DNA from: Dicyema japonicum
Lineage: Eukaryota; Dicyemida; Rhombozoa; Dicyemidae
Assembly: GCA_011109175.1 (NCBI GenBank)
Contig: RDEW01000029.1
Span: 468,158-532,157, forward strand
Length of the DNA: 64,000 bases
Direction: 5' to 3'
Shown: positions 1 to 57,528 of the stretch, one piece after another
Layout: each line of letters opens with the position of its first letter
Position numbering within the stretch: position 1 is the first letter of the stretch
Notes under the pieces: model-generated
What the model was told of the DNA's origin: nothing
Databases searched by the model: none
The model's input: the letters and a program-made list of their open reading frames with translations, nothing else
Program-made: the position numbers and the translations under genes

Positions 1-1552
1 AGTAGAAAATATTTTTCCAACCAGGATTTTCCTCGAAACAGTGTCAAAGGCTTTGTTGATGTCAATAGAAACGAAGATTGTGCGTTTGTGAGGCAGGGGA
101 TGGGTGTTAAAACCGTCTGCAATGAACTGCGATAGGGTAGCCAAGTATGTAGCGGTGGACCTACAGCGGAGGAAACCATGTTAAAATATAGGACGTGGAA
201 GATACGGAATAATGACTGATAATACAAGTTTCTCCATAATTTTTGACAGTGTGCTGGTAACGGAAATAGGCCTGTAGGAGGCATGTTCAGTCTCTGGTTT
301 CCCAGCTTTCAATATCGGTCTGATGATAGAATTCTTCCAAATCTTAGGAATAATATTATAGTTAATGGACAGGTTGTATATTTGCGTGAGGTAGCCAATT
401 GAGTAGTGGCTTAGGTGTTTTAGGTGAATAGAAGATACTTTGTCAGGCCCGCACGCCCGTGAGCTCTTTAATCTGGTGATCACATCCAAGACTTGGTCAT
501 CTGTGAATAGTTCGTGATAAGGTTCCTTCTTCGGTTTATGGGCATGCACCTTTCTGAATGGCAGCGCTGATAATTTCTGCGGCCTCATCAATAGATCGTA
601 TTAAGGAGGATAATCTCCGGGCCAAGAATTTATCGACAAGGTTACTGAAACCAGACCAGTCAACCTTCGTATAATCCTTGAATCTTTTTGAATCGGCGGG
701 CCGTCTCCTGTATCGTCGAAGACCTCTCAATTTTAGATAGATTGGATTGTGGTAAAAGACGTTCCAGGAAATGAGTCCAGCCAGAGAACGTGAGCATAGT
801 GTTAAGTCGGGGGATGTGTAGCTATCAGTCATCCTTAATGGGGTTCTCGTATGTGAGTTAAGGTTGTTCAGTATATTCAGGTCAGGAAGATAATTTGCAA
901 TGAATTCTCATCGGTTATCAGAGGATTGGGAAGTGAGCCAAACTGGATGTCGTGCATTAAGATCCCCACATAATAGTAGATTTTTTTATGTTGAAATGCG
1001 TGATAAATCAGGGGTGTAAGATGACGGACACGATCCTTGTGGAGGAATATATAAATTAGACAAATGGATCCAAAAGGACGGGAATAACTCGATTTTGACA
1101 GTAATCTGCTCCAAAGTCTTGTCGATGCCAAGAAGAACTGAGGTTCGTTGAGTTGTATCCATAAAAGGAATGTCGTTCTTTATAATAGTAAGTAGTCCTC
1201 CTCCGCGTCCTCCCTGACGATCTTTACGGATCACTGTGTATCCGGGAAAAGAGGGTGTTGGTATGGAGGGAGATAGCTTGGACTCCTGTATTAAAGCGAG
1301 GTCAGCCTCATTTTCGCGGATGAGTGCCCGGAGTTCAAAGATTTTCTTCCTGATCTCATTCGTATTCAGTTGTATAATTGTAAAACTTCTCCATGGACCA
1401 GGATTGGTTTCGACGTCTCCACATAGAAGACCACCGGACGGTGGGGAGAAGCTGTTGGCTCTTTTCGTTCTTTTTTGGAATGGGTGATAACATTTCTGGT
1501 GAGCCACATGACACCACGCTAACGCCACGCTAACAACATTTCTCAGAATCAC
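1..1552 (-). mobile_element. LINE-D: CR1/Jockey-like non-LTR retrotransposon, cut by the window edge
   Basis: Read on the minus strand, the order is a short N-terminal leader, a 2A-like motif, an APE-type endonuclease domain (QLNTNEIRKK..., LALIQESKL, RQGGRGGGLL) at 986-1552, a linker with KVDWSGFSNLVDKFLARRLS near 640-670, and reverse transcriptase blocks at 1-591 (ACGPDKVSSIHLKHL, SYRPISVTSTLSKIMEKLV, and FVSIDINKAFDT at the edge, holding the first catalytic Asp). The downstream half of the RT, with its second catalytic Asp pair, lies outside the window. Frame changes between about 590 and 990 show it is no longer coding. The same family recurs at 52.6-56.2 kb. Family placement rests on motif order; the clade within CR1/Jockey/Rex is not settled. 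Confidence 0.85.
1394..1429 (-). other. 2A-like ribosome-skipping motif in the LINE-D ORF
   Basis: Residues 42-53 of the 188-residue ORF at 986-1552 read LLCGDVETNPGP, which fits the D(V/I)ExNPGP consensus of 2A and 2A-like peptides. It sits at the N-terminus directly before the APE endonuclease domain. Such motifs are known from trypanosome and some invertebrate APE-type LINEs. If functional, translation would skip between the last Gly and Pro and release the endonuclease/RT polyprotein from a short leader of about 52 residues. The second family copy near 55.9-56.1 kb has lost the motif. Confidence 0.85.
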
Positions 1553-1559
1553 AGAATCG

Positions 1560-2335
1560 TTATAAATTTATAAACCAACATTGACATAATATAAAAGATA
1601 AATTGCTCCGTAGTTCATTTTAATAGATTACTTTCCAAGCATCTTTTGATTAAAAGTATATTTAAAAAAAAAATTATAGTTATTTTTTACTTCAATAAAG
1701 ACTTACTTCATGACAACTCTCCATTCTGACCAGAAATATTTTTGGTAGATATCCGTAAATATTCTAGACTATGCATAGAAGGAATTAACATAAATCCAAT
1801 ACATCCAGTAGGTTTTGTAAACTTTAATGTTCAATATATGCAAAGAAAATAATATCCGAGTAAGCATTAGTGACCTCATTGAATCTAGAGTAGATGGAAT
1901 GAGAAAATCAGATATTTTATAGTAGCACCTAGTAATAAAAATGATAGACCTGTTAGATTGAAATGTTTCATTGATGAAAGATTAAATAAAAAGCTGTTTT
2001 TTAGAAAATTCGTGAGTTTATAAAAAAATTGAGCAGGATATTTTCTAATAACAGTCTTAACCTATTCAACGACCTTCCTCATTGATCGAGGCATAGCAGT
2101 TGACGACACATTAGTATTTTATTCAAAACCTTGAAAAAATTAATAAATAACAAATAAAAATCATTAAAATTTTGACTTTATTGACCAAAAAAATAAATTT
2201 TGACTTTTCTTTTTAATAACTTTTAATTTATATAATATTTTTTATTAAAAATTACATTTTTATAAGCTTAAAACAGTTTTATAGAACATATGAATTTTTG
2301 ATTTTATTGACAAAAATCGCATTATTCATAACAAA
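1560..2335 (-). repeat. Interspersed repeat with GGGCGA-type end, copy 1
   Basis: This stretch is the inverted relative of 40805-41700 plus 43635-43790. Shared stretches include the AT-rich end with repeated 'gtcaataaagtcaaaatt', a middle with 'ggaaggtcgttgaa' and 'agactgttattagaaaatatcct', and the segment around 1640-1680. Both copies have broken reading frames through the middle (for example residues like FINSRIF and LTGLSFLLL) that I do not recognise. The outer end of the 40.8-kb copy is TAGGGCGATTTT, which suggests a DNA transposon terminus. It abuts LINE-D. Confidence 0.6.
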
Positions 2336-2559
2336 TCTGAGAATTCTTTCAAATTTATAGTACGAAATTAATGCAATACGTGATAAATAGATTATTTTTT
2401 AACGTTAATATGTGTTTGTCTTGTGCTATTAGCTTAATTTGTCTGATTCAGGCAATTTAGTTTCAAGCCAACCGAAGACCGGGCGGAACCACTCTCTTCT
2501 TTTGGGTAGAGTGGTAAATACTTTGCCTGAGAAGCCACCTGTATCGATAGCTTCTATTT

Positions 2560-2850
2560 TTCTAACCTCTCAACGACATTAACTGACCCAGGCTCAACTT
2601 CGGAAAAAGCTGAGACCCTAAAGATGAAAAATACGCATGTCTTAAAAGACAATTCATCTTCGAACCAGTGGCAGTCGAAACGACAAGAATAATTGGAAGC
2701 AGGTAACTGACGCTGCTAAACAGGATCGCCTCGCTCATTGCGAAGATGAAAAACGATAGGAGAGAAAGGAGCTGGCTTATTGAGCGCATTTCCTTCAATT
2801 CGTAAGGGGAAATGTGTTTTCAATTATGAGAGCAGCCAGCATTTGCTAAC
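2560..2850 (+). mobile_element. LINE-C 3' fragment (RT C-terminal tail)
   Basis: Plus-strand translation around 2630-2800 reads FEPVAVETTRIIGSR, then RERSWLIERISFNS, with stops and shifts. This is the FxPVAVETxGxxGPE...WLxQRLSVA block found at the end of many invertebrate LINE polyproteins, and it matches the better-preserved piece at 14575-14853. Only the tail remains. The sequence upstream to 2340 shows no feature I can name. Confidence 0.6.
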
Positions 2851-2929
2851 TTAGTTTTTGTCTTATAAAAAAATCTTTTAATTTTTGTAATTTATTTTAT
2901 TTATTAAAACCAAATATCATCTACAAATT

Positions 2930-3530
2930 AAAAAACTACCACTTCGTTATGCCGCCTGAGATAAGAGCTATTCAGTATTCTCCCACACCTAGTTGCAAGA
3001 TGATCTATGGTCTTCTTTGCTAAGTTACAATGTCCGCACTTAGTTTCTCCGTTATCAAAAAACATGCTACGATCCTAAAGTAGACACAGCCTTTTTTTGG
3101 TTATAGGAAAGTGACTTCTATGCACTAGCCATCCAGAGGATTCAGCAATATTCAATTCTGTGTCTTTTAAACACTGAAATAAAATAGTGTGCAGAGGCTT
3201 CTTCTTAATTTTTCCCGATAGATCAATTTCGACATGTTGTATTTCCATCAATTTCGACATTGTCAAGTCTTTCGCACTTTCAATGTTGTACTTTCAGGAA
3301 ATGAATTCTACGATAGTGGTGTTTTTTTTAATTCCCGCTATTCTTAGGCAGTAATTTGCCTTATGTTCCAAGTCATCATAAAATTGGAGGATCATCCATT
3401 CAGCTTTGTTACTTACAGACTCAAGGCCTATTCCAAATTTATTTCTTGGTAAAGTCTTTCTTTGTTAGCCGGTTGTAAGAAATCTGCGGATGTTTTTATC
3501 GATCTGTTCAAATTCTGGAGGCTCGATATC
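2930..3530 (-). mobile_element. LINE-B fragment: CCHC finger and endonuclease region
   Basis: On the minus strand a 63-codon frame at 3075-3266 carries ILFQCLKDTELNIAESSGWL, closely matching LMLFKCLKDLTIDIASSSGW of the plus-strand copy at 29.7 kb. Downstream comes a CGHC-type finger followed by IDHLATRCG, as in the copy at 59.0 kb. Frames are broken. In R4/NeSL-type LINEs this finger precedes the restriction-like endonuclease; here the endonuclease catalytic block is absent or unreadable. Confidence 0.65.
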
Positions 3531-9200: not shown

Positions 9201-11801
9201 TGACTCGACAGAATAAACATAACCTCATGCACTGAAGATCTCCGTGAACGCCGCTGGTTATTTAAGCGAATTTCACATTTATCGCCGGTAAATTCATCAC
9301 GAGGTAAATTCATCCCAGTTAAATCAAGGAATCACGTGGGCGGGTTTCTAGATAGAAGAGGTCGAAATTTTGATTTTTTATATTATAGTAAAATGCAATT
9401 TTGGAGATTATTCGGCGATAGGAGTCACGTATCCGTGACGGTAGGACCTATGAAATTGAAGAGAGAGGATCTATTTTTTCACCTCTCTTCAAAAGTTAAC
9501 GTATGCCTGCAATGTATTATTGAGGGGTTAATTTAGTTGTCACAAGCAGACGTTCTCTTTTGCGTTCCCTCCTTGAATTAATTACCAATGACTGTTTTTG
9601 CTAAGGCTTACCAAAGATTGTACGCCTGTGGCTAACAAATAATAAAATAAATATTTTGACAGCATGGCTTTGCAATTTGTAATGAGTGATAGAAGTATGA
9701 GAAAACTTTCTGAAGATGGATACATTTATTGTTTTGAAAAATTTAATGGCGAAGTCACATTTTGTTTAATGATAATATAAAAAATCAAAATTTCGACCTC
9801 TTCTTTCAGGAACCCACGTGGTTTGAAATATAAATTAACTTGTTCCATCATCTTAACAATAACTTCTTCATCGTTCGAAATAAGTTTTAGGTCGTCTATG
9901 AATAAAAGATGATTTGTTGAAAACGATAAAATTGACTGATCATTACTGGTAATCGAAATTTTGGGATATCTGTTATTAAGGAATCGGCTAAGTGGATCCA
10001 ACACTAGCACAAATAGCATAGGAGACAAACGATCTCCCTGTAAAATTCCTCTTTGTAGTTTGATAGTGCGAATATTATCTTTATTCAAAAAAGCTTGAGT
10101 TTCCAGTTTTGAATAAGTATTTTAGTTACGTTAACAATCCACAATGGAATGCCAGAGTTTTCAAGGACATCAAAGAGAAAATCATGGTTTACTGAGTCGA
10201 AAGCCTTTTTAACGTCAATCCATGCTGCATAAAGTCCAAATCTGTTAATTCTGTTAAGTGACTTGTTCACCAGAGCCTGTTCCTTAGCACCTTGGCATCT
10301 CCTCCTAGTGCCCATTTGGTTTTCAGTAAGTAGGTCAAATGCTTCCGCATAGTCAGTTAGCTTCATATTAATGCATTTCGTCATGAGTTTATATAACGAT
10401 GGCATGCATGTAATCGGGCGGAAATCTTTTGGAGACTCAGGCGCAGTGCATTTTGGGATCAAGTAAGTGAGTCCAGTGAAAAACCACTCTCCAGGCACAC
10501 ATTCTCCTTCTATAAGTTCACTCATCACATTAAATATTGAGTCGTGCAAAGACTTGAACTTTTTAACAAAAAAGTTGAAAACTCCATCGCAGCCTGGGGC
10601 TTTCCAGTTAGGCAGATATTTAATTGTTTCATTAAACTCATTTCTATTAAATCCAACAGGTACATTCTCGACGCGGGTTATTCATTTTTCAATATTGACC
10701 CTCTCTAAACATACATCATTCTTTTTCCAGACGTCTTCCCAAAAGTCTGCACATTTTTCATTATCAATAGACTCAGTAACATTATTTGCCGTAGGGGTTA
10801 AGTTTCTGTGAAATGATCTTCGATTTAATTCGAAGTTAAGATTATCAAGACGGAATTTCTTGCGGGACTCAGATACACACACTTTCTTTTCGAGAATTTT
10901 AATTTTATCTTCAATGTACGAAATAATCCTCCCTCTTTCACCATGATTTTTTTGGTATCCCACTAAAGATAACGCGTGGCAGGCCATAGGTTTTTCCCCT
11001 GATGACAACGTCTTCATAAAAAATTTTTTAATTAGCAAAAAATAGGATTTCCACTTTTCGACTTTTTCACATATATTCTCATTCCATTTTGATGGCTCAT
11101 TTTTTCACTGTAATAATCTGATATGTAGCTTGACCAGCATAAATAAGAGTAGAAATTTGATCCATAGAAATTATGGAGTTCTTTTTAACCCATTGGTTAA
11201 TGACACAGTTCAAATACTCCAATAAGTTATTGTCAATCTTGACAATGGGAATCTTTTTGGATCGGAGTCTCGAGCTTTCTTCAATTTGCTCGGCAATCAT
11301 CTATTGTTCCATAAATGTGTGTCGGCAGTGATCGTAAAATTTAAGATCCAGGGACGGTGAAGACATATCAGGCTTAGAATCTGGGGTTACCTTCGGATCA
11401 AGTTCATTGCGTGATAATTGTTTGCGTTCCTGGATGTATATCAGTTTTCTGAACTCAGGCATTGTTATTTCATCTCCAAACTTAGTCTTGAACCCCTCCA
11501 AGAGAATAGCCCATCCACCTGTGGGGACACGACCCAGTCTAGAGCGCGTGCTTTCAATAACTGAGGCAGCCCATTGTTCTCGACAATCAGCTGTTGAGGA
11601 AGACATTATTGCTCGTAGAACCGGAAATTTCGTGTTGTTTTGCTGAGGACGAATCCTAGAAGCATCCGCGTCGGAAACATGTCGGACAAGCTCGGTGGCC
11701 GTTCGATTTGGGTTTTCTTTACTCAATTTGGCGCAGAAGTCCGCATAATCCGATGAATTTAGATGATTCTTATCAACATCAACAATAACCATAACCAACA
11801 A
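9116..11801 (-). mobile_element. LINE-B: R4/NeSL-like retrotransposon, RT region, degraded
   Basis: Minus-strand order: an N-terminal frame (11301-11801) without known motif, a linker (10682-11300), then reverse transcriptase at 9726-10610. RT motifs include PNWKAPGCDGVFNFFVKKF, LTYLIPKCTAPESPKDFRPI, AWIDVKKAFDSVNHDF (first Asp), GILQGDRLSPMLFVLVLDPL and LLFIDDLKLISND. The last is the catalytic box as FIDD in place of the usual YADD. The rest of the RT (GMNLPRDEFTGDKCE) continues at 9116-9330 beyond a MITE inserted at 9332-9828. This RT type (FRPITC, LDPLSRFLN) is typical of LINEs with a C-terminal restriction-like endonuclease, matching the LINE-B ends elsewhere in the window. Several frameshifts mean it is inactive. 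Confidence 0.82.
9332..9828. mobile_element. MITE-like element with ~50-bp terminal inverted repeats
   Basis: The left end 'cacgtggg...agaagaggtcgaaattttga' through 'ttttttatattat' is mirrored at 9773-9828 ('ataatataaaaaa...cgacctcttct...cccacgtg'). About 500 bp lies between the ends, with no transposase. It interrupts the LINE-B RT frame; LINE-B sequence resumes on both sides. A clear target duplication was not found, so the superfamily is open. Confidence 0.7.
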
Positions 11802-13501: not shown

Positions 13502-14425
13502 CTATTCGTGCCGCGTCTGAACAATCCTCTTAATTAGCCTTTCCCATCCCCTCCTGTCCGATGCCAAGTGCCGCAGACTACTAAGGTCTTCACCGTCCTT
13601 TAGTAGTCTGGTTACTGATCTCAGGTCACCATTAAAGACTTCCGGAAGAGTTATTCTTGGACGACCTCTGAACTTCTCCCATGACGTATCGAAGTATTCT
13701 TCCATGACGACGTTTGCTGGCGTGTCTTGTTCCAATCTGAGAATATGGCCAAACAATCTCCAGCGAGCCTTCATGTTCATGGTGCTCAGAGGTCCGGAGC
13801 CGCATCTTCTATATAAATTTTCACTCCCTACACGCATTGGCCACTTTAGTCCCAAGAGAGACCAAAGTTGCCTTCTGTGAAAAGAGTCAAGGTTTTGTTC
13901 GTCCGTTTTCGAAATTCCCCACGTCCCAGAGTTGTATGTTAGTATGGGCCTCACGAACGCCTCATACAACCTGAGTCGGAGTGATGGCCCGACCGAGCAT
14001 TTTCTTATCCAACATTTCATAAGTTTTTGCATAGTAACCGTAGATAACAATTTTCTTCTTGCAATGTCTTCGGAGTCTCCGAGAAGAGAGCCAAGCTTTA
14101 CGGTCTTCCTCCAACATTCACTATTGCGTAGTTCCATCCGCTTAATTTCAACAATATCCGTTTTCTGAACATTCAGTGATAGACACCATTTGGCCAAACA
14201 GCCTGATGCAACCTCCAAGAGACGTAAGAGTGCTTCTTTGTCAGTCGAGATAAAGTCAACATCATCGGCATACACGATCTCCATAATATCATTGTTGTAA
14301 TACTTCCGGAGGTCTTGCAGAGCCGATTCAAGGTATATAGCAAACAATACTGGGGAAAGGGAATCTCCTTGGGGTGTGCCCACTGTTGAAATAATTTCCC
14401 GTGACAAACATTTTCCAATACGCAC
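13502..14425 (-). mobile_element. LINE-A: APE-type LINE, RT catalytic core to C-terminus, open frame
   Basis: One open frame of 307 codons holds GTPQGDSLSPVLFAIYLESAL, then MEIVYADDVDFISTDKEA (intact YADD box), thumb and tail (RRQLWSLLGLKWP, ARWRLFGHILRLEQDTPANV, GRPRITLPEVFNGDL) and a stop at 13502. The 3' flank is 'gcttataataataataataataa' (minus strand), i.e. a TTA/ATA microsatellite tail like that of the SINE. The 5' side is truncated at about 14427. This is the least damaged RT segment of the window, suggesting relatively recent insertion. Confidence 0.88.
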
Positions 14426-21867: not shown

Positions 21868-24325
21868 CAGAAGTTCTCAACCTTTTTAGCTCATGGGCCA
21901 AATCGATAATTAAGAATATCTTTGCGGGCCGCACAAAAAATATTTTATTTGATTAAAGAAAAAAGGCTTTATTACGTAATAAGAGAATCAATGTGAGACT
22001 TGATTTTGCTTGGCGTCTACTATTTTATCGAAACGAGGAGTAAAGTTCGAAGACGATGTACGTAAAAGTTGAATTCGGTGTTCATCAGTCAATCGATTTC
22101 GACACTTACTTTTTATTCGCGTAAGTTTACTGAAAAGAGCTTCACATGCATACGTTGATCCGAAGACTGATGCATTTTTTTGAGCATTATAGACCAAGTT
22201 CGGATATTTCCATTGTGGAATTCGACTCCAAAAATCCAATAGTTCACTTGACTTAAATAGCGCGGTAATTTGTAAATCTGCCTGCATTTCAATTAGCTCC
22301 AGCTGATATACATATGGAGCGGTTGCAGCATCTGTTTCCATAGGTGACGAAAATATTTTCATAATAGGTAGAGCTTCTTTAAAATCATTAAAACATGTTT
22401 TGAATTCATCGATTAAGTCACTAATAACAGAGGTATATTTTTCATATGATCCATCTTCCCAGTGGTTTGAAAGTATTGGAAAATGAATGGTAACTCTAGT
22501 TTTTCGATAAATGCAAAACCAGTCTGTATAATTCATGACATAGTTTGTTCTTACCCTGCAGAGAAGTATTCAAAATCGAAAGGTGTGTAGAAATATCAAC
22601 CATAAATGCTAAGTCTGCAATCTACTCCTTATCAGTAAGCTAAAGATAGAATATCTTATTGTCAATAAAATTTATAATCTCCGGGAGAAGGTCATAAAAT
22701 CTAAATGCGATTTAAAAATTTATACAACCTTTTTAGACATGCTGCCCGACTCAACCATCGTACGGTTGTATGCATGAGCAAATCTCCATACTCAGCATCA
22801 ACATCCTCGAGAAATTACTTAAAATTGCGGTGATTTAAAGCACGAGAGCAAATAAAATTTACGATTGAAATGACCGTTTTTGTTACATGGTCCATTTTCA
22901 TAGATTTTACAGCTAAATTTTCTTGATGTAGTATGCAGTGATGCCAAACCACAAGACTCAACTCATCATCTACTCCCCATCCAGCTACGAGACCTTGAAA
23001 CCCAGTTTTCCATCCAACCATAGAAGGACATCCATCTGTGGCAATTGAAAACATTTTTGAAAGATCCAAATGTGCCTTTTCAAGGCAATCACGAAATTTA
23101 CGGAATATATCAGCTCCTTTAGTAGAACCATAAAAGTTACGTAGCGTGAGAAATTCTTCATAATTTTGAAGTCAGGCATGACACCTCGAATAAACACCAG
23201 CCATTTATTCTGTATCACTAACATCTTTAGTGATGTAAAGAGCAATAGAATAATGCACGAAAAAGTTGGATTCAGTGAGTAGCTGGCATTGAATATCGTC
23301 AAATGTTCTCTCAATTCTCCGAGTAACTGTGTCGCTGCTTAGCTGTAAGTTCATAACATTTTTTTAATTTCTGAAGAACGACATTTTTTCAGTAAATATA
23401 AGGATAGCCTGCGTAATAAATTCTCAATCTGAATACGGCTTTATATTTTTTGCAAGTAGATGACAAAATTTTGAAAGAAGCTATTGTAGCGGATCTTGAT
23501 GACATGGGCTGTTTAAACAAAGTGGTTTGTAGTTTGCGATTTGATTTCATAGATAGGAATTTGATTTTTTTGATTCACCTTGAAATGAATCATATTCTGA
23601 AGAATGTTTCATATAATGCCTTTCGACATTATATAACTTAAGACATCGTATAACAAAATGACAAATCAGGCAATGTGCTTTGCCATTTTCTTCAAAAACG
23701 AAAAATTGTTCCTCCCATTCGGAGTTAAATGTACGATATTTTTGAAAAATTTACTACTTCTTTTAACACGTTTTCCAGACATCACAAGAAATATTAATTA
23801 AAAGTTAATACAAAATATATATAAAGCCTTTTCACGAAAGCCATAGTATTTATAGCTCCGCATAGGCAGGACACACTTTATTTAAGTAAAGAACAGTTAA
23901 TTTTAACTAATCGTAGAACCAAGGAATGATCTTCACTTCTTTTTTTCTTTTTCTTGTGTGAGTGTCCTTTCTAGACAATCCAGTTCCGCAGTGAGTATCC
24001 ACTGATGACGGTGTCACTCGTCAAACTCTTTCTGCATCGTAGATGCGTGGAACCTTCCACCAGGTGAACAGCAGCGAGATTCGGACCCGTAGCCTAAGCC
24101 ACTTAAGCCCGACATCTAACCACTATCACACAAAATATATTTAATTTAAAAACCATAGTTAAAATTTGTAAAAATTTTTTAACTATAAAAGTTTAATGTA
24201 CGAAACAAACAGAAAGAAAAAGCACAGTTAAAATCCGGCTGTATTATGTAAAACATGTAATATTTTTTTTATAATTTTAAGCGGGCCGCATTAAAATCCT
24301 GGGAGGCCGCCTTTGAGAATCCCTG
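21868..24325 (-). mobile_element. hAT transposon (GTF2IRD2/ZBED-like) with perfect 8-bp target duplication
   Basis: Ends: CAGAAGTTCTCAAC on the left; TTTGAGAATCCCTG on the right (imperfect inverted match). The duplication ATCTAGAT is at 21860-21867 and 24326-24333. Minus-strand transposase pieces are SKMFSIATDGCPSMVGWKTG (22985-23069), HHCILHQENLAVKSMKMDHV and IVNFICSRALNHRNF (22815-22950), and a C-terminal hAT dimerisation region (21988-22536; FGSTYACEALFSKLTRIKSK in place of the usual FxSTYxCEqxFS). A SINE sits within it at 23819-24131. It splits the integrase at 21290-24720. Frameshifts make the transposase inactive. Confidence 0.93.
23819..24131 (-). mobile_element. tRNA-derived SINE nested in the hAT element
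   Basis: Reverse-complement copy: the tail 'aaagccttttcacg' is at the left, then the body, then the head ending 'agccacttaagcccgacatctaaccactatcaca'. The A-box side is damaged and the B-box is GGTCCGAATCTC. It is the innermost layer of the integrase > hAT > SINE nest. Confidence 0.9.
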
Positions 24326-45606: not shown

Positions 45607-48496
45607 TTAGTCAATTAATCTCGATTTATAATAGCAAGCCAAATCATACTCATCCAACACTGCCAAGAAAGCGTCCCTCATTGATGTACTCACTGAATTG
45701 ATCATTCCAATTAGTTTATGCCTTTGACTCTCGGCATAGCTGCAGTCAATCTCCCTAAAATAGCTTGAAATATCCCTTCCTAGCACCCTCGTTAATAAGT
45801 CGTCCAAAAATCTAAATAAAATGATAATCACTACTCTTCGTATTTTTTGATAAAGTTATGAAGGAGACTGTCATATAATTTGATCTTTGTTTGAGAAATC
45901 TTTCCACCTTTTAGTACCTCTGACCATGAAACGGTTCGTTCACTCTTTTGTTTAATACTTTTTTAACCTCAGGCAGCAAATCGCTCAAAATAAGATTTTT
46001 ACTTTTCAGAGAATTATTTCGAAGCCATTGATATATCTCTTCAGACTCGAAAGGTTGGTTAGTATCCCTTTTAGCAACATCTCCTACGGGGGACTCATAA
46101 CTTTCTCCGTTTGTCTTCTCTTTGATGTTGGGAACGTTAATGGTTTTTAGAATAGATCGAGGTACAGCTTCTATTTGTGAAGAAATCAAATTACTGTCAT
46201 TATTTGTAACTCCTGTGAATTTTCTTAGACTGATAGCAGTCCTTACATTTTGTTGTTTATCACGACATTGGTCTCTCAGTTTAGTTAGGACTTTAATGTG
46301 CTCTTTACATTTGTGTCTCTCATATTCAATCATTCTTGTGTCTTCACTTTTGAATGCGTTCAGTTGATTGCCTTTTATTCCGCATGTATGCACCGAGTAG
46401 GTCCCTTCGGATTTAGTCGATAAGGACTGAAGAAACTCGTTAGCTTGATAATCCAGTGGATTGAACGAAAGAGTGTTGACTGGGGTGTTCAGTCTCATGG
46501 AGGAGTATATATCATCCACGTGTTCATTTGGACGACCATCGGAAAATATAAAGATTGATTCTGTGTTTGAATCATTCATAGCGTGACTCAGCGGTGGAAT
46601 AAAATGAGTCGACGTGCCCAAGGGGATCGATGTAAGCCACTTGAGTGCTTCATTGATCTTACAATTGGTTGCCAATGTCAATTTGTCTTGAAAACAGTAA
46701 CATCGTTGATTGAATGCGATGACATTAAAATATTTACAATTTACAAATTGTTCCTGTAATAACCACAATCTCGTTACATTCAAAAGTGCATAAAGAATTT
46801 TGTGCACGTATTGCATGACCGCCTTCATTGATTGGGAGACATCGACCAGAATGTAAGCCTTGTTTTCAACGACTCTGCCAAAATAATAGATGCTAGTCTC
46901 TCGAAGCCACAAAAGTCTTTATTTATAATTTAATTAATTATAATTTAATTTAAATTAAAATTTAATTTATAATTTCTGGCAAACCTGTTGTTTATTTTCC
47001 TCAGGATTTGTCTCACTTTATTACAATACTCCCTCCATACATCATTGGTTACATACACGTGCATTATTCTTCCGTCCTTCCATACCACGTGTCCAAACTG
47101 CTGGCAGTACTTTGCATCCACTATTTTATCTCCCTTTGATAAAGAGACAAGTCCATTGCAGTGTTTGAATGCTACATTGGCGAGAATGTCAAAAATATTC
47201 AGTTTGCTAGCACAAAGACCGTTTTTTCTAAGCCAGTCTTCACTGGAATGAATGGGAAATGATTTTGCTGTTTTTGGATTATCACAGTTTTGTTTTTCTG
47301 GATTTTTTTGTTCTTAAATAAATATTTTTAAATTTATTACTTTTAATCGACAATTTGGTTTCAATCGATTTCAACCTTTTAATGAAAACCTCAACTTGTT
47401 CCAATTCAGAAAAAATTTTGAAGACGTCTTCCCTAATGCCCGACCCCAGCGGCATTCCTCCAAAAGCTTTTCGTATTTTTTGAATTTGTTGGTCCTCAAT
47501 TTGGAAGACATCAAACTGAAGATTTATCCCATAGGCGTGAAATCTCCCATTTTTACTAAGAGTGATCTTTTTTAACTCGTTTATTAATTTGTAGTCTACT
47601 GAATCAAATACCACCACATTGATTACCACATCATTGTGGATCTACTATAAAACTACCAATAACATTATCAATTATCAAGTCCTTACTTCCCACTGAGGAC
47701 TCACCTTCACTGAACAAATATACTGCTTCAGTCTGCTAATTAGTTACTTAAATTACGGTTTTGTCGATTATTGCTGCTTTCACGGATTCGAAAGTGCATC
47801 TAACGGTTCCTTCAGACCTTGGACTCATTTCCTTGAGCCATTCCATAGCCTCAGATATGCTGTCCTGGGTGACTTGTCTCATTTTGTTCGAAAACAAAAT
47901 TGGTGTTTCCTTCGCCCTGTGAATAAAAAATAATAAATACCAAACTAAATTAAATTCATCAATATTTGAAATTTGCGTCCTCACCAACTCCAAGGCAACT
48001 GTTAAATAAGGATCGAACTTCTCAGAGGAAGTCGTATCAAAGACTATTGTCACAGATCGTTCCACTATGAGACCGAATATTCTCCTTGTTCCACAATTCA
48101 ACCAGTTTAACCTTTCCACGTAAAGATTTCTCAAATAGTCAAGTTTTTCTCTTAATTTAATTATTTTGTCCTTATTTTTTGTTATCTTAAGTTTATCAAT
48201 ATCTTACATTGTAGGTCTTTCCACATTCCTGGCAGAACTCTTCTACGAAAAGGTCTCCGCTATAACGAGAACAGATTGGCTTTTTAAGAAAATCGACATA
48301 CTCTACAGTTTTAGGATTTTAAACCTTCGCTTCTCTTAAATCCGATTTTATCCAAGATATTTCCCCATTTTAATTTATTTTTTTCCAAGCCATATTTTTT
48401 CAGCCAATTTTCTGCACTTATTTGTTCTGTGACGTTGGATGAAAATTTTGTGGACATATCTTGCTGTAATTCAGCATTGACCACGTTAATGTCCAT
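45607..48496 (-). CDS. VWA3-like protein (von Willebrand A domain-containing, cilia-associated family)
   Basis: Ten predicted exons (minus): 48325-48496, 48208-48302, 47941-48185, 47757-47916, 47664-47732, 47341-47641, 46985-47312, 45968-46916, 45835-45944, 45607-45811. The introns are 22, 22, 24, 24, 22, 28, 68, 23 and 23 nt, GT-AG. The exons total 2634 nt, exactly 878 codons with stop. Near the start, SAENWLKKYGLEKNKL and a paralogous SSEDWLRKNGLCASKL later in the protein are VWA3A/B hallmarks. The first vWA domain (about 120-300) has a degenerate metal site (FDTTSS). The second (about 476-640) has DVSQS at 482-486 and FIFSDGRPN. WSEVLKGGKISQTK and LGRDISSYFREI mark the C-terminal part. It is shorter than vertebrate VWA3A/B. 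The gene could be VWA3A- or VWA3B-like; symbol withheld. Confidence 0.9.
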
Positions 48497-56431: not shown

Positions 56432-57528
56432 ATGTTTAGTTATAATAATATTGAAATGATATTCTGGAAAACTAGGTTTATTTTATTCCTGTTGATTGTT
56501 TCACTGATGATCTTCATAATTTTGGAATTGACACTCCATAAGCCATACACTCTATTCCAACTAAAAAACTCTGGAAAAATGAAAAATATAAAAAACCCAG
56601 TCACAACGATTGTTTTTCTCAAAACATTGAAATGTGGAAGCAGTACAATAGTTAATATTTTAAACAGATTTGCCCGTCTTCACAATCTATCAATTGCTGT
56701 GCCAATTAATAAAAGGACTCACTTTGGAAATTCCTCTTCCTTCTTTGACTTGAAATACGTCAAAAATCAACACATGCCATTCGACATGCTCTTTTTCCAC
56801 ACTCGAATGGACAAAAAAGAAATCTTGAAAGTAATGAAAAATGATCCTTTCTTCTTGACGATTCTGAGAAACCCCTTTTATCAATTTCCCTCGTATTATC
56901 ACTACAGTGGAAATTCTAATGATCTGGAAATAGATGAATTTTTAAAAAATCCGAATTTTTATTTCCAAAGGCTTAAAGACGATAAATTGAAAACCCTCAG
57001 GCTTACATGCTTGGTTTCAATTCCCGAACAAATTACACCGAAACAGACATTAATTTTTTTGTGGAAAAAACGATTAAAGAGTTCGATTTAATATTGATTG
57101 CCGACTACTTTGATTTTTCTATGCTACTTTTGAGAAAATATTTACATTGGGAGTTGGATGACTTAATTTCTTTTAAAATCAACTCTCAAAAGATTGAAAC
57201 AGTGGACCAAAAGTTAAGACAGTCAATCATTGAGTGGAATGATGTCGATACGGCCCTTTATAATGCAGCCCTCTCTCGTTTTTGGAATGAAGTCTCTGCC
57301 AAAGATATTCAAATTAACGACTTGGAGTACCTCACCTTCAAGAGACTAGAGCTCTACATTAAATGTGTGAAATCAGAAACCAAGAACAATTCAAATTTGG
57401 ACACGTTCAGCAAAACTTATTTGGGTTTATCATATGGATTTGTTTTGACTGAATTTGGAAAGACAAACGATTTGTGTAATAAATTGGCCATGACAGATCT
57501 GGGAATCCTTCATAGCTACTATAGTTAA
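56432..57528 (+). CDS. Galactose-3-O-sulfotransferase-like protein, one apparent frameshift
   Basis: A type II membrane protein: residues about 16-35 are a membrane anchor (FILFLLIVSLMIFIILEL). LKTLKCGSST at 63-72 matches the 5'-phosphosulfate-binding loop of Gal3ST/cerebroside sulfotransferases, and FLTILRNPFYQFPSYYHY the 3'-phosphate site. The second half (57007-57528; VEKTIKEFDLILIADYFDFSMLLLRKYL, WELDDLISFKIN) is in another frame; protein continuity KTLR-AYMLGFN near 57000 needs one extra base. No GT-AG intron of suitable length and phase explains it, so this is a 1-nt deletion: sequencing error or young pseudogene. Predicted role: sulfation of galactose on glycolipids or glycans in the Golgi, with PAPS as donor. 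Total about 365 residues, near family length. Confidence 0.85.

Follow-up and report, generated by a model that had tools for sequence, protein, structure and literature searches.

A probable dicyemid VWA3B gene with at least ten predicted GT-AG introns, nine of them only 22-28 nt long

The gene described here lies on the minus strand of the 64,000-nt stretch of DNA that was analysed (the window, to whose positions all coordinates of the gene refer) and is read, with high confidence, as a dicyemid VWA3B gene carrying at least ten U2-type GT-AG introns, which an ordinary spliceosome would excise through intron definition, and whose product would function in motile cilia. The gene structure, the affinities to VWA3B and to dicyemids, the U2 and U6 genes and the intron sizes elsewhere in the genome were all determined from the sequence.

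The gene extends from an ATG at 48496 to a stop codon at 45607. An earlier note on this DNA had described this span and nine GT-AG introns of 22, 22, 24, 24, 22, 28, 68, 23 and 23 nt, the removal of which leaves exactly 878 codons including the stop, or 877 amino acids, and all of this was reproduced from the DNA. The count of ten exons and nine introns given there proved too low. Alignment of the 877-aa form with relatives revealed an insertion of 8 residues in the second VWA domain, which corresponds to the segment 46777-46754, GTAACGAGATTGTGGTTATTACAG, a stretch of 24 nt that begins with GT and ends with AG, contains no stop codon and is divisible by three. Because removal of this segment closes the gap and raises the profile score, the gene is predicted to contain at least ten introns and 11 exons, with 870 codons and a product of 869 aa; the 877-residue frame stayed open with the tenth intron kept because that intron is stop-free and frame-neutral. 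Nine of the introns are thus 22-28 nt long and one is 68 nt long. All ten have GT-AG ends, but these were required by the model and are weak evidence by themselves.

Exon 1 (48325-48496, 172 nt) begins with the ATG at 48496, a start codon without homology support, and is followed by intron 1 (48303-48324, 22 nt, GT-AG, phase 1), whose junction, GFKRSE/EYV, is ungapped in the alignment with a Dimorphilus gyrociliatus protein. Exon 2 (48208-48302, 95 nt) is joined to exon 3 (47941-48185, 245 nt) across intron 2 (48186-48207, 22 nt, phase 0), also without a gap. Intron 3 (47917-47940, 24 nt, phase 2), again a stop-free multiple of three with an ungapped junction, precedes exon 4 (47757-47916, 160 nt), and intron 4 (47733-47756, phase 0), for which the splice sites permit either 24 or 21 nt, precedes exon 5 (47664-47732, 69 nt). 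A one-residue alignment gap adjoins the junction at intron 5 (47642-47663, 22 nt, phase 0). Exon 6 (47341-47641, 301 nt) and exon 7 (46985-47312, 328 nt) are separated by intron 6 (47313-47340, 28 nt, phase 1), which falls in the weakly conserved stretch linking the two VWA units. The sole long intron, intron 7 (46917-46984, 68 nt, phase 2), is AT-rich and has an ungapped junction. The second VWA domain begins in exon 8a (46778-46916, 139 nt) and is interrupted by the tenth intron (46754-46777, phase 0), after which the gene continues through exon 8b (45968-46753, 786 nt), intron 8 (45945-45967, 23 nt, phase 0), exon 9 (45835-45944, 110 nt), intron 9 (45812-45834, 23 nt, phase 2) and the last exon (45607-45811, 205 nt including the stop codon).

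The start codon at 48496 is not certain. The seeded ab initio model described below placed an alternative start at an upstream ATG (48572) followed by an extra 22-nt intron (48538-48517), likewise without homology support, and this additional intron is regarded as doubtful.

In a chance control, the longest open coding sequence was scored when no more than nine introns were allowed, each with GT-AG ends and a length of either 22-28 or 68 nt. The VWA3B gene yielded 2655 nt with the use of eight introns, a length matched by none of 100 dinucleotide shuffles (best 912 nt, median 342 nt). The opposite strand of the gene yielded 717 nt, and the maximum among 37 other overlapping segments of the window, read on both strands (74 readings), was 1578 nt.

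Individual junctions were evaluated by the score of the product against a profile of VWA3B-side proteins, which was 620.8 bits with all ten introns removed. Skipping the removal of any one of introns 1, 2, 4, 5, 6 and 7 reduced the score to 44-425 bits, and keeping the frame-neutral intron 3 reduced it by 13.2 bits, to 607.6 bits. Removing 21 nt at intron 4 gave 615.5 bits, compared with the full 620.8 bits for 24 nt, so that the longer form is favoured by the comparison. No drop in score was observed when intron 8 or intron 9 was kept (621.6 and 621.5 bits, respectively); both are situated in the C-terminal tail, which has no usable homology. The claim that VWA3 motifs continue across every junction therefore holds, by homology, for introns 1-7 and does not extend to introns 8 and 9, and the description of the intron set as internally validated went too far, since these last two junctions rest on reading frame and splice sites.

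Ab initio gene finding was used for leads only and covered 302,533 bases, with one 3.1-kb stretch counted twice. When seeded with the introns of VWA3B and of a Zic gene it recovered the ten VWA3B introns, a result that is not independent since the lengths were learned from the seeds. It also added a 24-nt intron at 48266 that falls inside a conserved motif and was rejected as false. A model with flat intron lengths did not recover the VWA3B structure and drifted into long false introns.

The earlier note had called the product VWA3-like, and both protein searches and family comparison bear this out and place it on the VWA3B side. A first search with the product listed five proteins among 7,996 candidates. 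The best was an unnamed protein of the annelid Dimorphilus gyrociliatus (32% identity, E 9.9e-112), and a specific family name was carried only by a tunicate VWA3A (E 8.2e-48). A search from the Dimorphilus protein returned 72 rows including itself, in which every specific name was VWA3B or VWA3A and the remaining names were hypothetical or generic. The product scored 620.8 bits against a VWA3B-side profile (27 rows) and 251.7 bits against a VWA3A-side profile (8 rows), the sides having been set by name and similarity, with several members lacking a specific name. In a family tree of 19 rows, rooted at the midpoint, it fell on the VWA3B side (13 versus 6 rows) across a split with an SH-aLRT value of 100, its place inside the VWA3B group being unsure. 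These comparisons of sequence indicate that the product is a VWA3-family protein, most likely VWA3B rather than VWA3A. A search of its own genome gave eight matches, all within the gene itself, and VWA3B is the only copy found there; a diverged VWA3A could have escaped this search.

Pfam VWA_3 matched the 877-aa form in two stretches, with 32.4 bits against a cut-off of 27. Two VWA units are therefore present, and in the second the sequence DVSQS, which we take to be the metal-site motif, is aligned to DTSAS and is intact. No PF15057 domain was detected in the product by Pfam (E 0.1); this domain is also absent from many of the 72 related rows, that of Dimorphilus among them, and was not taken as defining VWA3B. 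No solved structure was matched by sequence. In common with the VWA3B proteins of other animals (Dimorphilus, Capitella, molluscs, flatworms and vertebrates), the product has two VWA units in equal order with the metal-site motif in the second, and it differs from them in being shorter and fast-evolving, in its C-terminal tail without clear homology and in its lack of PF15057; identity to spiralian members is 31-33%. Its branch in the VWA3B tree is long (2.51) and joins that of the rotifer Rotaria, with a warning of long-branch effect from the tree program, and this grouping is likely to be such an effect. Because of the long branch, VWA3B was rejected as a phylum marker and the gene cannot place the source organism.

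A proteomics study with limited sample size found VWA3B in human airway cilia of the wild type but not in those with mutant DNAH5, and it also mentions a role suggested for the protein in transcription and DNA repair (PMC12310455). The paralogue VWA3A is part of a motile-cilia expression signature, although in chicken choroid plexus, a ciliated tissue, no in situ signal was apparent for it (PMC7331728). Since the epidermis and larvae of dicyemids are reported to be ciliated (PMC6736024), our best guess, by homology, is that the dicyemid VWA3B has a ciliary role.

The affinity of the source was examined with the Zic gene of the assembly around the window, which comprises 64,672,829 bases in 191 contigs. 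This gene has a first intron of 23 nt, placed by reading frame only, and, within the zinc fingers, a 26-nt intron that follows THT/G. A conserved bilaterian A-intron has been reported in the zinc-finger domain of Zic, and is present in Dicyema (PMC2222250); the intron found here likewise lies in the zinc-finger region. Among the best 120 of 4,542 protein matches, only three covered at least 85% of the query: Dicyema acuticephalum ZicA (56% identity over 89%), ZicB of the same species (52% over 91%) and a record labelled 'Octopus sinensis' (53% over 85%). The top-scoring match among these 120, duck ZIC4, covered 52% only. The query grouped with Dicyema ZicA and ZicB and the octopus-labelled record, with support of 100/100, in a tree built from 18 chosen proteins, and the similarity to this group reaches into the part of the protein before the zinc fingers. 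The query branch is long (0.95), and composition was flagged for the query, the Dicyema rows, the octopus-labelled row and Dugesia. Thus a phylogeny of a host gene, named in the earlier note as a check on its proposal of a dicyemid source, falls with Dicyema, in agreement with the short introns published for dicyemids, and the DNA most likely belongs to a dicyemid that is not D. acuticephalum. Miniature introns like those of Dicyema would accordingly be present in a second dicyemid, a divergent one.

The octopus-labelled Zic record (P0080, on a contig of 37,656 bases) nests with D. acuticephalum ZicB (98/95) and has nine extra residues at the place where the Zic gene of this assembly has its zinc-finger intron. 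This record probably derives from a contaminating dicyemid contig in which an unspliced 27-nt mini-intron was annotated as coding. It illustrates, together with the tenth VWA3B intron, a practical trap, namely that frame-neutral, stop-free mini-introns pass as protein insertions.

Intron lengths elsewhere in the genome were estimated from six-frame profile matches to TCP1 chaperonin and kinesin genes, by subtracting three times the profile gap from the genomic gap that separates adjacent exons of a gene. Pairs were considered usable if the profile gap was at most 12 positions and the genomic gap was below 200, and 40 of 40 TCP1 rows and 62 of 70 kinesin rows were included. Of 44 usable pairs, 40 imply introns of 20-28 nt: two of 20 nt, 12 of 22, 17 of 23, seven of 25, one of 26 and one of 28. 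The remaining four gave 46, 11, +1 and -1. The mean for the 40 pairs was 23.1 nt (SD 1.5), or 23.7 nt with a median of 23 when the value of 46 was added, subject to a bias in which lengths divisible by three keep the frame and are under-counted and indels shift the estimate by three. When all 70 kinesin rows were used, 43 of 71 neighbouring pairs within 3 kb were usable, the other 28 being dropped for larger profile gaps or overlaps, and one 20-nt pair was lost. The nine short VWA3B introns have a mean of 23.6 nt; with the 68-nt intron included, the median is 23.5 nt and the mean 28.0 nt. A narrow peak in the twenties is thus present across genes, at 22-23 rather than 26-27 nt.

Two conserved motifs permitted a closer view of individual introns, both judged by eye. 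In a DEAD-box helicase gene (Pfam DEAD, 150.5 bits; L037, minus strand, 1391-3404), a predicted 20-nt intron, GTATTGTTTGTTTATTTCAG, splits AQT/GSGKT, presumably the Walker A motif, and in a kinesin gene a 23-nt intron splits AYGQ/TGSGKT, which we take to be the P-loop motif. The ab initio prediction of a 62-nt intron in the kinesin gene conflicts with this motif, which points to 23 nt, and was rejected.

The statement of the earlier note that dicyemid introns are very short, with a mean of about 26 nt, is in print: introns of Dicyema are reported with a mean of 26.2 +/- 1.9 nt (n=16; PMC2222250) and those of dicyemids with a median of 27 nt (PMC6543705), and the gene models of D. japonicum, whose genome is given as 67.5 Mb, have a mean intron of 38.2 nt (PMC6736024). 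The introns described here share with the published ones a very short size and a narrow range of lengths, and differ in the values themselves, which are 23.1 nt for the 40 exon pairs, 23.6 nt for the short VWA3B introns and 20 nt for one prediction. A Welch test of the 40 pairs against the 16 published introns gave p = 6e-6, in what is a rough comparison of different genes with long gaps left out. This suggests that dicyemid mini-introns can shrink about 3 nt further than in Dicyema. In distant lineages, introns of comparable size occur in Paramecium (20-35 nt) and in the nucleomorph of Bigelowiella (18-21 nt; both ranges from PMC2222250), and presumably reflect independent reduction. Beyond these three papers, no shorter introns were mentioned in the titles and opening lines of abstracts among the matches listed for dicyemids with introns, genome assembly or intron length; the study of Ogino et al. 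2010, reportedly an earlier survey of 40 genes, lay outside the comparison. Short, uniform dicyemid introns were known already, and what is new is the set of length estimates from TCP1 and kinesin exon geometry.

A bolder reading, to which we would give about even chances, is that no animal so far has shorter introns than this dicyemid lineage, in which lengths would peak at 22-23 nt and introns of 20 nt would be functional, values several nt below those published for Dicyema, and that the U2 spliceosome operates here at its geometric limit. On the same reading, frame-neutral introns of about 24-27 nt that contain no stop would form a hidden class which annotation mistakes for coding sequence, with this gene and the octopus-labelled Zic record as examples.

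Other explanations of the VWA3B locus were weighed against the structure proposed above. The gene might have nine introns and an 877-aa product, with 46777-46754 as either an intron whose removal is optional or a genuine insertion, specific to this lineage, in the second VWA domain. The segment being stop-free and frame-neutral, the form that keeps it would still be an intact protein, but its ends are those of a GT-AG intron, its length is like that of the others, and its removal produces an ungapped alignment and gains of 10.6 bits (from 610.2 to 620.8) with the VWA3B profile and 11.0 bits with the VWA3A profile; we hold this version to be very unlikely. It is extremely improbable that the gene is a pseudogene or an assembly artefact whose apparent introns are short frame-breaking insertions. 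Although single-base frame breaks do occur in other conserved genes, namely in a Pax-like paired domain and in the two of 44 exon pairs at +1 or -1, the interruptions of VWA3B all begin with GT, end with AG and measure 22-28 or 68 nt; equally short sizes are found again in the TCP1 and kinesin genes, and the VWA3B frame is otherwise open over 2.6 kb.

That the DNA comes not from a dicyemid but from some other organism with tiny introns, be it a protist or a different animal such as an orthonectid, appears highly improbable. VWA3B itself does not place the phylum, and the Zic evidence comes from rows that include no orthonectid Zic, with a long query branch and a group flagged for composition, but the full support for the grouping with Dicyema and the similarity extending before the zinc fingers favour a dicyemid, orthonectid introns have a reported median of 57 nt (PMC6543705), and the assembly is near in size to the 67.5-Mb genome of D. 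japonicum (PMC6736024).

The reading of the locus as a dicyemid VWA3B gene with at least ten introns implies that its pre-mRNA carries these as U2-type GT-AG introns. We infer from the sequence that they are removed from the transcript, and the simplest mechanism would be removal by the ordinary spliceosome through intron definition, near its minimum size. The spliced product would be a protein of 869 aa with two VWA units, the second with DVSQS, which, by homology, may serve the motile cilia of dicyemid adults and larvae.

Genes for spliceosomal RNAs were identified in the genome: 22 of 25 matches to U2 and nine of ten to U6 exceeded the cut-off, and one U12 gene was found (85.4 bits; contig C68, 163471-163599, locus L042). 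From these matches, part of the minor spliceosome seems to have been kept in a genome of mostly 20-28 nt introns. A scan for miniature U12-type introns with a splice-site and branch-site pattern within 30 nt, which we took to represent the U12 consensus, gave 12 matches compared with 14 in a reversed control, and hence no signal. Among 48 introns of at most 30 nt predicted by the seeded model, one false intron having been removed, 23 carry an A at position -7 and 22 carry one at position -8, and this A may mark the branch point. As U2, U6 and U12 snRNAs are encoded, dicyemids offer a natural test of the shortest intron that an animal spliceosome can remove.

Several other features were recorded. 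The single-base frame breaks within conserved domains, located in the Pax-like paired domain (L007, about 1690-1710) and in two kinesin pairs, are too short to be introns and are either assembly indels or real changes. In the window, a galactose-3-O-sulfotransferase-like gene (56432-57528, plus strand) lies in two overlapping frames, and of the GT-AG candidates of 18-44 nt that were tried between 56941 and 57092, none joined these into one frame of more than 300 aa. Mobile elements of the window are represented by pieces at 13502-14425 and 10085-10549 (-), 21988-22536 (-) and 986-1552 (-). Those of reverse transcriptase, of which there are two, and one of hAT dimerisation exceed the Pfam cut-off, and an endonuclease-like piece is below it. 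Eight matches to the paired domain (PAX) were found, at four places in the genome (contigs C13, C101, C122 and C1).
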